This document shows positions 20,312-32,397 of a stretch of 64,000 nucleotides of DNA, piece after piece. The translations under genes were made by a program, and so were the position numbers. The stretch covers positions 1 to 64,000 of the forward strand of contig DUMO01000055.1 in NCBI GenBank assembly GCA_012839865.1, written 5' to 3'. Below the pieces are notes generated by a model. The model made no database searches, was not told the DNA's origin, and was given only the letters and a program-made list of their open reading frames with translations. This DNA comes from Clostridiaceae bacterium (GTDB lineage Bacteria > Bacillota > Clostridia > CAYPLH01 > DUMO01). Position 1 is the stretch's first letter. Each line of letters begins with the position of its first letter.

Positions 20312-20442
20312 TATTGTAAACTATTAAGGAAGTTGAATCTTCATTTTGAAGAACGGGGGACAAAATACTTTTTTGGGGTGAAGCTGTTTTATGCAGCGGG
20401 ATTAACTCTTTCCTAACCCGTCAGCTAACCTCGTAAACTAAA
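20312..20442 (+). ncRNA. c-di-AMP riboswitch (ydaO/yuaA class)
   Basis: Conserved ydaO-class blocks appear in order: the CTATTAAGG region, a hairpin (GAATCTTCA/TGAAGA), GAACGGGGGACAAA, TTTGGGGTGAA, a short hairpin, GCGGGATTAACTCTTTCCTAA, and the diagnostic 3' block CCCGTCAGCTAACCTCGTAA. This class binds cyclic di-AMP and commonly controls cell-wall hydrolase, resuscitation and osmolyte genes. The aptamer ends only a few bases before the AGAGGGGG ribosome-binding site of the next gene, and no T-tract terminator lies between. Control may therefore act at translation initiation, which is less usual for this class and is inferred. Confidence 0.88.
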
Positions 20443-20456
20443 AAGAGGGGGATTAT

Positions 20457-21257
20457 ATGTTACATAAGATTAAGGGTATTATGTTAACCGCTTTTGTTTT
20501 CCTTGCGGTTATGCTGCCAGTCAATTCTGTTTTTGCCTACAGTTCACTTTTGAAGTACGGTCAAACAAGTTCGGATGTGTACAAACTTCAGGAAGATCTT
20601 AAACGTCTGGGGTACTTTTCGGTCAATCCAACCGGATATTTCGGATCGATTACAAAAGATGCAGTAATTAATTTTCAAAGGTCAAATAATTTGCTTGTGG
20701 ATGGAATTGTAGGTTCTCAAACAGCCGGAATGATTTCACAACTTTTAAACAGGTCATCAGGTGTCTCCAGGGGCAGCGAAAGCAATCCGGTTGAACTTCT
20801 CAACTGGTTTGGAAATGCAGAATATGTATTCTCAATAGGCTCGGTTGCCAGGGTAACTGATGTGGATACAGGGTATTCATTTTACTTAAAACGCACCTAT
20901 GGCTATAATCATGCTGACGTTGAACCATTAACCGCTTCAGATACCCAAACCATATTGAACATTATAGGTTGGTGGAATTGGAACAGAAGAGCGGTTATAG
21001 TAGAAGTTAACGGTCGAAGAATAGCTGCCTCCCTCGCTCCGATGCCGCATGCAGGCAGGGATGACAAACCCGCAAATGCCATGGTAAGCAATAGGAGCGG
21101 TGATTATGGCTATGGAGCCAATCTTGATTCCGTCAAGGGAAATAATGTAGACGGCGTGCTTGATCTTCATTTTCTCGGAAGCAAAACTCATGGTTCAAAT
21201 ACTGTAAACAGTGCCCATCAACAAATGGTTTACAAAGCATTCAATTCAGGCAGGTAA
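20457..21257 (+). CDS. Secreted peptidoglycan-binding domain protein
   Basis: A 266-residue exported protein. Residues 1-27 form a signal peptide ending SVFA. Residues about 30-98 are a PG_binding_1 domain (LKYGQTSSDVYKLQEDLKRLGYF...TGYFGSITKDAVINFQRSNNLLVDGIVGSQTAGMI). The remaining 160 residues contain YSFYLKRTYGYNHADVEPL and VLDLHFLGSKTHGSNTVNSAHQQMVYKAF, a conserved clostridial module whose activity I do not know. The gene sits under a c-di-AMP riboswitch, which fits cell-wall remodelling. ATG at 20457 follows AGAGGGGG. Confidence 0.88.
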   Translation: MLHKIKGIMLTAFVFLAVMLPVNSVFAYSSLLKYGQTSSDVYKLQEDLKRLGYFSVNPTGYFGSITKDAVINFQRSNNLLVDGIVGSQTAGMISQLLNRSSGVSRGSESNPVELLNWFGNAEYVFSIGSVARVTDVDTGYSFYLKRTYGYNHADVEPLTASDTQTILNIIGWWNWNRRAVIVEVNGRRIAASLAPMPHAGRDDKPANAMVSNRSGDYGYGANLDSVKGNNVDGVLDLHFLGSKTHGSNTVNSAHQQMVYKAFNSGR

Positions 21258-26908: not shown

Positions 26909-28324
26909 TTATTGTCCGATTAGTTCTTTTACAATTTTGGCTGCCAGCTCTGCATCAGCTTTTCCTCTTGTCTCCTTCATGATATATCCGATAATTGCTC
27001 CCAAAGCTTTTTCTTTTCCGCTTAAATAAGCTTCAACAGCCTGCTTGCTGGAATCAACCGCTTTTTTGCATATTTCCCTGAGGGTGCTTTCGTCCAGCCC
27101 CGCCATATCCTCTTTTGAGAGCAGTTCTCCAACGGACTTTCCTGTATCCAGCATTCTCTCCAGAGTGCTTCTTGCCATGTTGGAATTAATTTTTTTACTT
27201 TCCGTAAGTTCCACCAATTCCCTCAAGTACTCGGGAGGAATGGAAATTGCTGCTTTCTCTTTCTCATCATCTGTTGGCAAGCGCCTGAATATCGGCCCCA
27301 AAATATAGTTTGCAATTGCTTTGTAATTCTTTGAGCCACAGCATGCATTTTCAAAAAATTCTGCTATCTTCTTATATTTTACCAATAATTCTGCATCTGA
27401 AACAGGCAATCCATAGACCGAAGTAAACTTATTGAACTTTTCATAAGGCAACTCGGGCAATTCGTTCCTTATTTTTTCAATTTCTTCATCTGTGGTATAA
27501 ATAGTCACCAGATCAGGGTCTCTGAAATACCTGTAGTCCTCGGCATCTTCCTTTTCACGCATGCTTTCGGTAATGTTAAGGTCGCTGTTGTACCTTCTGG
27601 TTTCCTGCTCCAGTTTTCCGCCGTTCTCAAGGATTTCTACCTGCCGGTTAAACTCATACTCCATTGCCTTTGAAATGAAATTTATTGAGTTCATGTTTTT
27701 GATTTCCACCCTGGTTCCGAATTTTTCCTCTCCTTTTTTGCGGACGGAAATATTTACGTCACACCGCAGGGACCCCTCCTGCATTTTCACATCAGAAACA
27801 CCGATGTACTTCATAATCAACCTGAGCTGCTCCAGGTATTCCACGGCTTCTTCCACGCTTCTTATATCCGGCGCGGTTACTATTTCAATAAGTGGTGTTC
27901 CTCCCCTGTTATGGTCTATATAAGTATCACCTCTTTGGTGTACCAGCTTGCTTGCATCTTCTTCAATATGAATGCGTGCTATGTTTATTCTCTTTCCGGA
28001 GGTCAGGTTGATATACCCTTTTTCACATAGAGGTTTGTCATGCTGGGATATCTGGTATGCTTTTGGCAAATCAGGATAAACGTAGTTCTTTCGATCCATT
28101 TTTGTAGTCTTTCTAATTTTGCAATTTGTAGCCAGGCCGGCTTTAATGGCAAAATTAACAACGTTTCTGTTCAGCTTTGGCAGCGCTCCCGGCAGCCCCA
28201 GGCAAACAGGACAGCAAAGGGTGTTTGGTTCAGCTCCGAACTCTGTAGAGCACTGGCAGAATATTTTTGTTTTTGTAGATAGTTCAATATGTGTTTCAAA
28301 CCCGGCAACCATTTCCCAACTCAT
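26909..28324 (-). CDS. gatB: Asp/Glu-tRNA amidotransferase subunit B
   Basis: The kinase/tRNA-binding subunit of GatCAB, which phosphorylates Asp or Glu on mischarged tRNA before amidation. It has 471 residues. The family block ETHIELSTKTKIFCQCSTEFG with CCPVCLGLPGALP gives the zinc Cys set, and KMDRKNYVYPDLPKAYQISQ and SLRCDVNIS are present. The C-terminal helical and YqeY-like tail (about 300-471) binds tRNA. The ATG overlaps the gatA stop codon (ATGA), a sign of coupled translation. It is the last gene of aspS-gatC-gatA-gatB. Confidence 0.97.
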   Translation of the reverse strand: MSWEMVAGFETHIELSTKTKIFCQCSTEFGAEPNTLCCPVCLGLPGALPKLNRNVVNFAIKAGLATNCKIRKTTKMDRKNYVYPDLPKAYQISQHDKPLCEKGYINLTSGKRINIARIHIEEDASKLVHQRGDTYIDHNRGGTPLIEIVTAPDIRSVEEAVEYLEQLRLIMKYIGVSDVKMQEGSLRCDVNISVRKKGEEKFGTRVEIKNMNSINFISKAMEYEFNRQVEILENGGKLEQETRRYNSDLNITESMREKEDAEDYRYFRDPDLVTIYTTDEEIEKIRNELPELPYEKFNKFTSVYGLPVSDAELLVKYKKIAEFFENACCGSKNYKAIANYILGPIFRRLPTDDEKEKAAISIPPEYLRELVELTESKKINSNMARSTLERMLDTGKSVGELLSKEDMAGLDESTLREICKKAVDSSKQAVEAYLSGKEKALGAIIGYIMKETRGKADAELAAKIVKELIGQ

Positions 28325-29787
28325 AAAATCACCCCTGTTTCCGTTTTTTTATAAATTTTGTCGCAAGTTTGTTTTTCAAATTGGTATGCAGCATTCAATA
28401 CCCTGGCATCGTTAAATTTGTCACCGATAATTTGCATTCCTACAGGCAATCCCCTGCTGTCAAATCCGCATGGTACGGTAACTGCAGGAAGACCCGCCAG
28501 ATTTGCAGGCGCCGTGCAGATGTTGGAAATATATTCATCTTTATTTTCAGATGCATCATTGTTGAATTTAAAGGCTGTAGTCGGAACTGTTGGAGTCAAC
28601 AGCAAATCGCAATCTGAAAAAACTGCCTTAAATGATTTTACAATTGCACCCCTCAGTTTCCATGCTTTTTTGAAATATATATCATAGCAACCCTTAGTCA
28701 AAACATATGTTCCGAACAATATTCGTTTCTTTACTTCCCTGCCGAAACCCTCGGTCCTGGTTTTGCAGATCATATCGTTTACATCATTGTAGTATGGTGT
28801 TCTATAACCATATCCTATGCCGTCATAGCGTCCCATGTTTGATGAAAACTCGGCATAAGCCAGTGTAAAATAAACAGGCAACGTATATTCCAGTACCGGA
28901 ATTTCAATGTCTACAATTTCAGCGCCCAGCTTGCTGAACAGTGCCGCAGCCTTTCTGACACATTCTCTTACTTCTTCATTTGCACTGTCTGACAATTCCT
29001 TCAACAAGCCAATCTTCATACCCTTTATACTGTTTTCCAGATTAGGTGCCGCTTTGCATCTTTTTCCCTGTGAAGTTGCATCCTTTTTGTCATATACAGC
29101 AATAGCGTCATACACTATGGCTGCATCTTCCACACAGGATGTTATGGGGCCTGCCTGGTCAAGACTTGAAGCACATGCTACAATGCCATACCTTGACACA
29201 GAGCCATAGGTTGGTTTCAACCCTACCAAACCGCAAAAGCTTGCAGGCTGTCTGATAGAGCCTCCGGTATCAGAACCAAGGCCGTAAACGGCAATATTTC
29301 CTCCTACCGCTGAAGCAACCCCTCCGGAACTTCCTCCTGAAACTCTTGTTGTATCAAGGGGGTTCAATGCCCCTCCGAAATATGATGTTTTACAGGTTGA
29401 ACCCATTGCAAACTCATCCATATTGGTTTTGCCAAGTAAAACAGCGTTTTGGCTATGGAGAAGCTCCCAAACCGTTGCATCAAAAAAGGGGACATATCCT
29501 GTCAAAGCTTTGGAACAGCATGTAGTTTCAATGTCTTTAGTCGATATATTGTCCTTTAAGGTCATTGGTATTCCCTCAAGGGGCATTAATTCCTCACCCC
29601 TTTTTATTTTCACATCAACCTTTTTTGCTGTAAGCAGTGCTTCATCAGGAGTAATACGGACATAGGCGTTAAGCTTGCTGTTCACTTTTTCTATTTCGTC
29701 AAGGTACCTTTTGGTCAACTCAACGCAGGATATTTCTTTTGCTTTTAAAAGGCCATTCAAATACCTAATTTTACTTAAACTTTTCAT
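28321..29787 (-). CDS. gatA: Asp/Glu-tRNA amidotransferase subunit A
   Basis: Amidase subunit that frees ammonia from glutamine or asparagine for GatB. It has 488 residues. The amidase-signature triad is complete: Lys in GIPMTLKDN, Ser in GSDTGGSIRQPA, and the nucleophile-region SGGSSGG. The segment VSRYGIVACASSLDQAGPITSCVEDAA is typical of GatA and separates it from general amidases. It overlaps gatB by 4 nt and follows gatC by 8 nt. Confidence 0.97.
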   Translation of the reverse strand: MKSLSKIRYLNGLLKAKEISCVELTKRYLDEIEKVNSKLNAYVRITPDEALLTAKKVDVKIKRGEELMPLEGIPMTLKDNISTKDIETTCCSKALTGYVPFFDATVWELLHSQNAVLLGKTNMDEFAMGSTCKTSYFGGALNPLDTTRVSGGSSGGVASAVGGNIAVYGLGSDTGGSIRQPASFCGLVGLKPTYGSVSRYGIVACASSLDQAGPITSCVEDAAIVYDAIAVYDKKDATSQGKRCKAAPNLENSIKGMKIGLLKELSDSANEEVRECVRKAAALFSKLGAEIVDIEIPVLEYTLPVYFTLAYAEFSSNMGRYDGIGYGYRTPYYNDVNDMICKTRTEGFGREVKKRILFGTYVLTKGCYDIYFKKAWKLRGAIVKSFKAVFSDCDLLLTPTVPTTAFKFNNDASENKDEYISNICTAPANLAGLPAVTVPCGFDSRGLPVGMQIIGDKFNDARVLNAAYQFEKQTCDKIYKKTETGVIL

Positions 29788-29795
29788 AGTACCTC

Positions 29796-30083
29796 CTATT
29801 TGGCGACTCTCTTTCTGATAACAAAATATCCGTCTTCGCCGCCATCCCTCTCTCTTAGTATTAATTCCCTGTCTGTGGATTCTGCAACTTCATCCTCGTT
29901 GAAAGAATTTACTATATCATTTATGTCATCAAAGTCTTCCAGCCCATCTTCCGGTACATTTTTAATCTTGTCGGCAAATTCAACCAGCTTGTTCACATCC
30001 ATGGCATATGACTCAAGTTCATCGTCTTCAATATAAATCATGGCAAGCTTTGCGACTCTCAATAGATCTTCCTTCGTAAACAT
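29796..30083 (-). CDS. gatC: Asp/Glu-tRNA amidotransferase subunit C
   Basis: A 95-residue clamp that wraps GatA and GatB. The N-terminus MFTKEDLLRVAKLAMIYIEDDELESYAMDVNKLVEFADKI matches the family helical hairpin, and the C-terminal strand includes DGYFVIRKRV. The ATG at 30083 sits 8 nt after AAGGAG; an upstream ATG precedes that site and was rejected. The gene starts 187 nt after aspS, with no T-tract terminator in the gap, so one operon is likely. Confidence 0.95.
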   Translation of the reverse strand: MFTKEDLLRVAKLAMIYIEDDELESYAMDVNKLVEFADKIKNVPEDGLEDFDDINDIVNSFNEDEVAESTDRELILRERDGGEDGYFVIRKRVAK

Positions 30084-30270
30084 TTCATCAACTCCTTGCA
30101 TCTTTTGCTTTTTCAGAATTATTAAAATAAATTAATTTATCTGCTTCCGGTTTAACATATTTATATCAGGTTTTCAAAAGTATTTGTTCACAAGCCTTAT
30201 TTATTATATTCCTGGTTAAAAAATCAAACCAGTTCTTCTGATTTATATATCTTTATGCTATTGACACGTG

Positions 30271-32019
30271 CTACCTGATCTTGATATGAACTTCCCTAAG
30301 CTGCTTTTCAGTTACCTCGCAAGGTGCATTTGTCATCAGGTCCTGGGCATTGTTGTTCATTGGGAATGCAATAACTTCCCGGATATTTTCCTCACCTGTC
30401 AAAAGCATTATTATCCTGTCAATGCCCGGTGCCATACCTGCGTGGGGTGGCGCACCGAATTTAAAGGCGTTATACAATGCGCAAAACTTGTTTTTAAGGT
30501 CCTCCTCGGTGTAACCGGCCAGTTCAAAGGCCTTCACCATAATATCAATATCATGGTTTCTCACAGCACCTGAAGAAAGCTCAACCCCGTTGCAAACCAC
30601 ATCATATTGATGGGCAACAATTTCAAGAGGATCTTTGTTCAAAAGTGCATCCAGGCCACCCTGGGGCATTGAAAAAGGATTATGGGTAAATGCAATTGCA
30701 CCTGTTTCTTCATCAATTTCATACATTGGGAAATCAACAATAAAGCAAAATTCAAACCTGTTTTCATCTATCAGCCCCAGTCTCCTTGCAAGCTCGGTTC
30801 TGATTTGTCCCGCCAGCTTCGGTGCAAATTCCTTCGTATCCGCTATAAAGAACAAAACACAGCCAGGCTTGAGGTTCACACGATTTATAAGCTCTTTCCT
30901 GTCTTCATCGGATAAAAACTTGTCTATCGGGCCAAAAAATTTCATTTCTTCATCAACTTTTATATAACCCAAACCTTTCATTCCTATACCCAGGGCAAAT
31001 TCCAGCATGTTCTCAAAAAAGCTTCTTGGCTGTGTTGAGCAATTTTGCACATTGATCGCCCTTACCGTCTTTTTTCTGAAAGGAGCAAAACCGGTATCTA
31101 AAAACATATCGCTGATATCGATTATTTCAAGCGGGTTGCGAAGGTCCGGTTTGTCGGTGCCATACTTTAACATTGCTTCTTTGTAGGGTATTCTTGGGAA
31201 TGGTGGTTTTGATACAACCTTGTCTGAAAATTTAGTAAATGTTTCGTATAACACGTCCTCAGCAACTGATAATACATCTTCCTGCTCTGCAAAGGACATT
31301 TCAAAATCCAATTGGTAAAACTCTCCCGGTGAACGGTCTGCCCTGGCATCCTCATCCCTGAAACAGGGTGCAATCTGAAAGTACCTGTCAAACCCCGACA
31401 CCATCAAAATTTGCTTAAAAATCTGTGGTGCCTGGGGAAGGGCATAGAATTTCCCCTTGTACTTTCTGCTTGGAATAATATAATCCCTTGCTCCTTCAGG
31501 TGATGATGAAGTCAATATCGGAGTTTGTATTTCCAGAAAGCCCATTTCCTCCATCTTTTTTCTAATGAAGGAAATTACCTTGGACCGCAGAACAATATTA
31601 TTCTTAACTTCGCTGTTTCTCAAGTCCAGGAATCTGTACTTGAGCCTCAGGTCTTCCTTTACGCTTTTGGAGGAAGTTATCTCAAAAGGCAGGGAAGTTC
31701 TCACCTTGTTCAACACAGTCAGGGATTCACAAACTATTTCAACCGTACCTGATTCAATTTTGGGGTTAATTGTTTCTTCATCCCTTTTTACAACTTTGCC
31801 TTCAACAGTAATTACACTTTCCTTTGGCAGGCTTTTTATAAGATTTTCGTCATGTATTACTACCTGTACTATACCATAATGATCCCTAAGGTCAAGAAAC
31901 TTGACACCTCCATGATCTCTAATATTTTCATACCAGCCTGATACTGTAACCCTGGTTCCAATAATACTTTCCCTTATTTCACTGCAATTATGGGTGCGGT
32001 ATTTGTTTACTCTTTCCAT
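30271..32019 (-). CDS. aspS: Aspartate--tRNA ligase, probably non-discriminating (Asp/Asn)
   Basis: Class IIb synthetase of 582 residues with the bacterial layout: N-terminal anticodon-binding OB fold, catalytic core, and the inserted GAD domain (about 285-420). Motif 2 is FDRYFQIAPCFRDEDARADRSPGEFYQLDFE and motif 3 is GMAPGIDRIIMLL. In the anticodon-binding loop the sequence is RDHGG with His36. In studied enzymes His here goes with relaxed recognition of tRNA-Asp and tRNA-Asn, whereas discriminating enzymes (E. coli, B. subtilis) have Leu. This fits the downstream gatCAB and Asp-tRNA(Asn) amidation. The ATG at 32019 is 6 nt after AAAGGAG. Expression is under the T-box upstream. Confidence 0.96.
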   Translation of the reverse strand: MERVNKYRTHNCSEIRESIIGTRVTVSGWYENIRDHGGVKFLDLRDHYGIVQVVIHDENLIKSLPKESVITVEGKVVKRDEETINPKIESGTVEIVCESLTVLNKVRTSLPFEITSSKSVKEDLRLKYRFLDLRNSEVKNNIVLRSKVISFIRKKMEEMGFLEIQTPILTSSSPEGARDYIIPSRKYKGKFYALPQAPQIFKQILMVSGFDRYFQIAPCFRDEDARADRSPGEFYQLDFEMSFAEQEDVLSVAEDVLYETFTKFSDKVVSKPPFPRIPYKEAMLKYGTDKPDLRNPLEIIDISDMFLDTGFAPFRKKTVRAINVQNCSTQPRSFFENMLEFALGIGMKGLGYIKVDEEMKFFGPIDKFLSDEDRKELINRVNLKPGCVLFFIADTKEFAPKLAGQIRTELARRLGLIDENRFEFCFIVDFPMYEIDEETGAIAFTHNPFSMPQGGLDALLNKDPLEIVAHQYDVVCNGVELSSGAVRNHDIDIMVKAFELAGYTEEDLKNKFCALYNAFKFGAPPHAGMAPGIDRIIMLLTGEENIREVIAFPMNNNAQDLMTNAPCEVTEKQLREVHIKIR

Positions 32020-32088
32020 CATTAACTCCTTTCTAAATTTGTTTTATATGTATTTTTGAGCTTGAAAAATTTTTGTTTGATTATATAA

Positions 32089-32362
32089 TAAAAAAACTCT
32101 TACATCCCCCAAGGGACGAAAGAGTTGATTTCGCGGTGCCACCCTAATTAGCTAATTAAAATTAGCTCCCTCAAAATACACTAACATGTATTTGCCGCTT
32201 TAACGCTCGGATGCGTTTGAGTCTACTAATGCACAGGGCATTTTCGGTCAAAAGCTCAAGGATGTTCTTCATATTAGATCAAATGTAATAGCCTCTCACC
32301 TTACGCTATCTCTCTGTAACACTGAATCTAAACTACTCTTCCTGTCATCGCCGGATATTTTT
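32089..32362 (-). ncRNA. T-box leader of aspS-gatCAB, with overlapping GAA/AAC specifier
   Basis: On the minus strand the stem I S-turn side reads AAGAGTAGT, the apical part has AGAGAG and GGTGAGAG, and the opposite strand of the specifier loop reads TATGAAGAACA between a TTAGATT/GATCTAA stem and an AGGA/TCCT stem. The conserved antiterminator sequence GGGTGGCACCGCGA lies at 32131-32145. The terminator stem AACTCTT (32120-32126) with AAGAGTT (32095-32101) ends in a T run. The triplet before the conserved A is AAC (32264-32266), overlapped by GAA (32265-32267). Uncharged tRNA-Asn, and perhaps tRNA-Glu, should therefore switch the operon on. Confidence 0.93.
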
Positions 32363-32368
32363 TTTATT

Positions 32369-32397
32369 ATTATATCCACTTTTATATAAAAGTTCAA
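32369..32397 (-). promoter_or_regulatory. Promoter of the T-box / aspS-gatCAB transcript
   Basis: On the minus strand TTGAAC (32392-32397), a 17-nt spacer and a perfect TATAAT (32369-32374) predict a start near 32362, exactly at the 5' side of the T-box. Confidence 0.85.

Follow-up and report, generated by a model that had tools for sequence, protein, structure and literature searches.

The window, a 64,000-nucleotide stretch of a draft Clostridiaceae genome (89 contigs, contamination estimate 3.7%), carries on its reverse strand the operon aspS–gatC–gatA–gatB, headed by a T-box leader (Table 1). The leader matches Rfam family RF00230 far above chance (E 2e-28; gathering score 93 bits) and spans the full model (positions 1–219), which bears out the T-box proposed here by the initial annotation; the separate TTGAAC-17-TATAAT promoter claimed for the operon is likewise present, in a leader region with three promoter-like sites against about 1.6 expected by chance. 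A short way upstream, the strand of the leader also carries a tRNA-Thr (CGT) gene (32877–32805). Elsewhere in the window, a c-di-AMP riboswitch (RF00379, 81.6 bits, 20321–20454, forward strand) directly precedes an ORF (20457–21257) that looks like a peptidoglycan-binding protein.

Table 1. Features of the aspS–gatCAB operon and its leader, in window coordinates.
Feature	Position	Strand	Basis or remark
Sigma-70-like promoter, TTGAAC-17-TATAAT	32369–32397	−	10/12 consensus
T-box leader, RF00230	32109–32357	−	129.3 bits
Specifier loop 3′ strand, UAUGAAGAACA	32263–32273	−	RF00230 match and fold
Specifier codon AAC (Asn), TBDB +0 frame	32264–32266	−	RF00230 match, register rule, fold
GAA (Glu) overlapping it in the −1 frame, probably incidental	32265–32267	−	Comparative counts
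Bulge UGGC of the T-box, matching the GCCA end (G73) of tRNA-Asn	32138–32141	−	RF00230 match, tRNA ends
Intrinsic terminator (hairpin with U-run), competing with antiterminator	32090–32126	−	Not listed by simple scan
aspS, bacterial-type AspRS, probably non-discriminating	30271–32022	−	First gene after T-box
gatC	29796–30101	−	Second gene of operon
gatA	28321–29787	−	Third gene of operon
gatB	26909–28324	−	Genome's only GatB_N match

The leader has the parts expected of the family: Stem I with a specifier loop, an antiterminator with a UGGN bulge, an intrinsic terminator that competes with it ahead of aspS, and a bulge complementary to the discriminator base G73 of the cognate tRNA-Asn. A simple terminator scan of the leader region did not list this terminator. 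Folded alone and without constraint, Stem I adopts its canonical shape at −17.5 kcal/mol: AGGA pairs with UCCU to close the specifier loop, and UAUGAAGAACA forms the 3′ strand of that loop; a 141-nt piece of the 5′ leader gave a minimum lacking canonical Stem I (z about 0). The RF00230 alignment and the Stem I fold both place AAC directly 5′ of the conserved A at 32263, and AAC is the specifier because the TBDB rule, which takes bases 2–4 counted from the specifier loop end (PMC7778990), picks this triplet. The register is secure, and an Asn codon therefore stands before an operon whose first gene is aspS, as originally read. The overlap of AAC by GAA within GAAC, shifted one base upstream, is also as annotated; −1 frames of this kind are considered by TBDB as well (PMC7778990). 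A reading of ACA in the +1 frame by tRNA-Thr was rejected, having no link to the operon.

Three AspRS genes are present in the genome. A housekeeping enzyme on contig C41 is 44% identical to the window AspRS, which is thus free for a special role; the third is archaeal-type and has its own T-box with a GAC specifier. This last protein scores 385 bits against TIGR00458 (cut-off 368), as expected of an archaeal-type non-discriminating AspRS (L012), and its T-box (G000 C54:62706–62889, 53 bits) has a UGGC bulge and a Stem I without the distal part. The anticodon-binding domain reads RDHGG in the window AspRS and RNLGG in the housekeeping AspRS, where we take His to mark non-discriminating and Leu discriminating enzymes; on this signature, the window AspRS is probably non-discriminating.

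GatB occurs once in the genome, within this operon, and GlnRS is present (803 bits to TIGR00440), so GatCAB is not required for Gln-tRNA. An AsnRS-like synthetase (named by size and domain) and AsnA are also encoded, and the indirect route is therefore not the sole source of Asn-tRNA; a genome search for AsnB gave nothing convincing beyond one 21-bit partial match. The genome's tRNA-Asn carries the U1-A72 pair that bacterial GatCAB recognizes (PMC4206432), so that both the amidotransferase and a suitable tRNA of the tRNA-dependent asparagine pathway are in place. The operon is best read as such a pathway, running beside the direct one.

The ends of the tRNAs bear on what the leader could sense. 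In this genome tRNA-Asn, tRNA-Asp and tRNA-Gln end in GCCA, and tRNA-Glu ends in ACCA. The UGGC bulge therefore matches G73 of tRNA-Asn, and its C faces A73 of tRNA-Glu, a combination that under the TBDB rule allows neither Watson–Crick nor G-U pairing (PMC7778990). A leader in which tRNA-Glu also drives read-through would be expected to pair with the tRNA-Glu discriminator too, and this one does not. The genome holds 12 T-boxes including this leader, and the bulges of the others are UGGU except for thrS (UGGA) and the GAC-type (UGGC). Among relatives, all tRNA-Glu genes read that encode the CCA end have A73; these ends were located by ARAGORN coordinates.

To place the specifier in a wider context, 170 aspS loci of the window type or near it (80 named and 90 genome loci) were screened for an upstream T-box motif, which was found in 76, 74 of them distinct. 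Specifiers were read by eye and not blind; a script then confirmed that AAC, with the preceding base assigned by eye, stands at a suitable distance. The sample is clustered by clade and includes two row pairs with identical AspRS; about 80 housekeeping-type aspS regions, which showed few T-boxes, were kept out of the tally. Among T-boxes of the window AspRS type, the specifier is AAC in 69/74, window included; the other five are L130, which clearly reads GAC, the odd leaders L142, L144 and L285, and L146, whose specifier went unread. The three odd leaders resemble one another and belong to a small-genome family (f6); the specifier of L142 seems to be GAC, and that of the other two AAC. Rfam returned a T-box match at 13/13 loci checked, and AAC adjoins the conserved A in most of the alignments shown. 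The nearest homologous aspS–gatCAB operons, from Ruminococcus-like MAGs with about 70–74% AspRS identity (L013–L049, L071, L228 and L229), showed no upstream T-box, as Rfam confirmed at ten loci. At one locus (L254), the aspS T-box is preceded on its own strand by a TwoAYGGAY RNA (RF01731, 88.8 bits, 3813–3650, reverse strand).

The AAC-type aspS T-boxes of other Clostridia (in L057–L091, L127–L139 and L230–L276), with or without gatCAB, share the specifier, a UGGC or UGGU bulge and the AspRS type with the window, but most of them lack its GAA overlap, since U, C or A precedes AAC in 45/69. Relatives also carry T-boxes before asnA-like and asnB-like genes (L338 and L357); the AAC specifier is common to these and the window, whereas their context is UAACA and the genes downstream encode asparagine synthetases rather than amidation enzymes.

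Of the 69 AAC-type aspS leaders, 35 have U immediately before AAC, 24 have G, 7 have C and 3 have A; among the 37 linked to gatCAB, this base is G in 21, U in 11 and C in 5. The overlap is thus missing from 16 of the gatCAB-linked leaders, where a conserved sensor would be expected to keep it. With kinship ignored, G is enriched beside gatCAB (21/37 against 3/32 unlinked; Fisher p 4e-5); when the AspRS tree is taken into account, gatCAB goes with G in about 2.3 of 6 independent pairs and the opposite way in 0, so few that the association cannot reach significance. In one clade of close AspRS relatives, eight rows have U before AAC and a single one (L139) has G. Nor is G before AAC associated with UGGU, the bulge that would fit A73; if anything, the reverse holds (8/24 with G against 27/45 otherwise; p 0.045, kinship ignored). 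Within the window genome, G precedes the specifier in 4/10 other readable T-boxes, so the overlap calls for no particular explanation, and GAAC is not far above chance. The overlapping GAA is, on these comparative counts, probably incidental.

The initial annotation had gone further, proposing a conserved sensor of both tRNA-Asn and tRNA-Glu, and hence of the substrate and product of amidation. A leader in which both tRNAs bind and regulate, through AAC and the −1 frame GAA, does have a precedent, correctly named in that annotation: the transamidation operon of Clostridium acetobutylicum is described as having a two-codon T-box for which tRNA-Glu binding was reported (Saad et al. 2013, PNAS 110:12756, as described in PMC4052509). 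As far as that description goes, the two systems have in common a T-box over a tRNA-dependent amidation operon and overlapping Asn and Glu codons, and both genomes hold three AspRS genes (PMC4206432). They differ in that the window genome combines a single GatCAB with GlnRS, and may also differ in the UGGC that faces A73 of tRNA-Glu, features set here against the published description of the C. acetobutylicum leader. The GAAC in the loop, the frames considered by TBDB and the enrichment of G beside gatCAB all speak for two codons; the mismatch at A73, the loss of the overlap in so many gatCAB-linked leaders, the absence of any association of G with UGGU and the scarcity of independent pairs speak against, and we regard this reading as unlikely. 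A conserved dual sensor is not supported: the overlap itself is not conserved, and the rationale also falters on the chemistry. Substrates of tRNA-dependent amidation are Asp-tRNA-Asn and Glu-tRNA-Gln, and tRNA-Glu is not among them. GlnRS was found in 29/43 T-box-bearing genomes searched and in 12/16 of the GAAC type, the window genome included, which weakens a rationale built on Glu-tRNA-Gln; of the four GAAC genomes with no GlnRS match, three fall below 90% completeness, where a missing match does not prove that the gene is absent.

Regulation by tRNA-Glu through normal antitermination is accordingly unlikely in the aspS–gatCAB leader, though tRNA-Glu as such may bind to it. A variant that we hold to be quite improbable would have tRNA-Glu bind the GAA frame with its A73 unpaired to UGGC, acting as a competitor that damps tRNA-Asn antitermination and is selected mainly beside gatCAB. 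Sensing of tRNA-Asp, suggested by aspS as first gene, by the G73 that tRNA-Asp likewise carries and by the GAC of one related aspS T-box, is highly improbable: neither GAC nor GAU stands at the specifier position, and the related T-boxes overwhelmingly carry AAC.

Very probably, then, this is a transcriptional T-box that controls aspS–gatCAB by reading uncharged tRNA-Asn with one codon, AAC. The full-length family match, in which AAC occupies the standard register, argues for this, as do a codon that stays nearly constant while the base before it varies, a bulge that fits G73 of a tRNA whose U1-A72 suits GatCAB, an AspRS that is both spare and of the RDHGG form, and a GatCAB that is not needed for Gln-tRNA. 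Against it stand the AsnRS-like synthetase and AsnA, the GAA overlap itself and the tRNA-Glu binding reported for C. acetobutylicum. By analogy with characterized members of these families, the anticodon of uncharged tRNA-Asn would pair with AAC and its GCCA end with the bulge, holding the antiterminator so that the terminator fails to form and all four genes are transcribed. AspRS, if non-discriminating as its family suggests, would then make Asp-tRNA-Asn, which GatCAB would turn into Asn-tRNA-Asn, closing a feedback loop.

An Asn codon before aspS is thus the rule for T-boxes of the window AspRS type, often beside GatCAB, which helps in annotating such operons as asparagine- and not aspartate-regulated. 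The sample also serves as a comparative test of how general two-codon T-boxes are and, as a conserved feature, the second codon does not generalize here. If the gatCAB-linked excess of G held in a larger, phylogeny-aware sample, sensing of two tRNAs would become a testable general idea.
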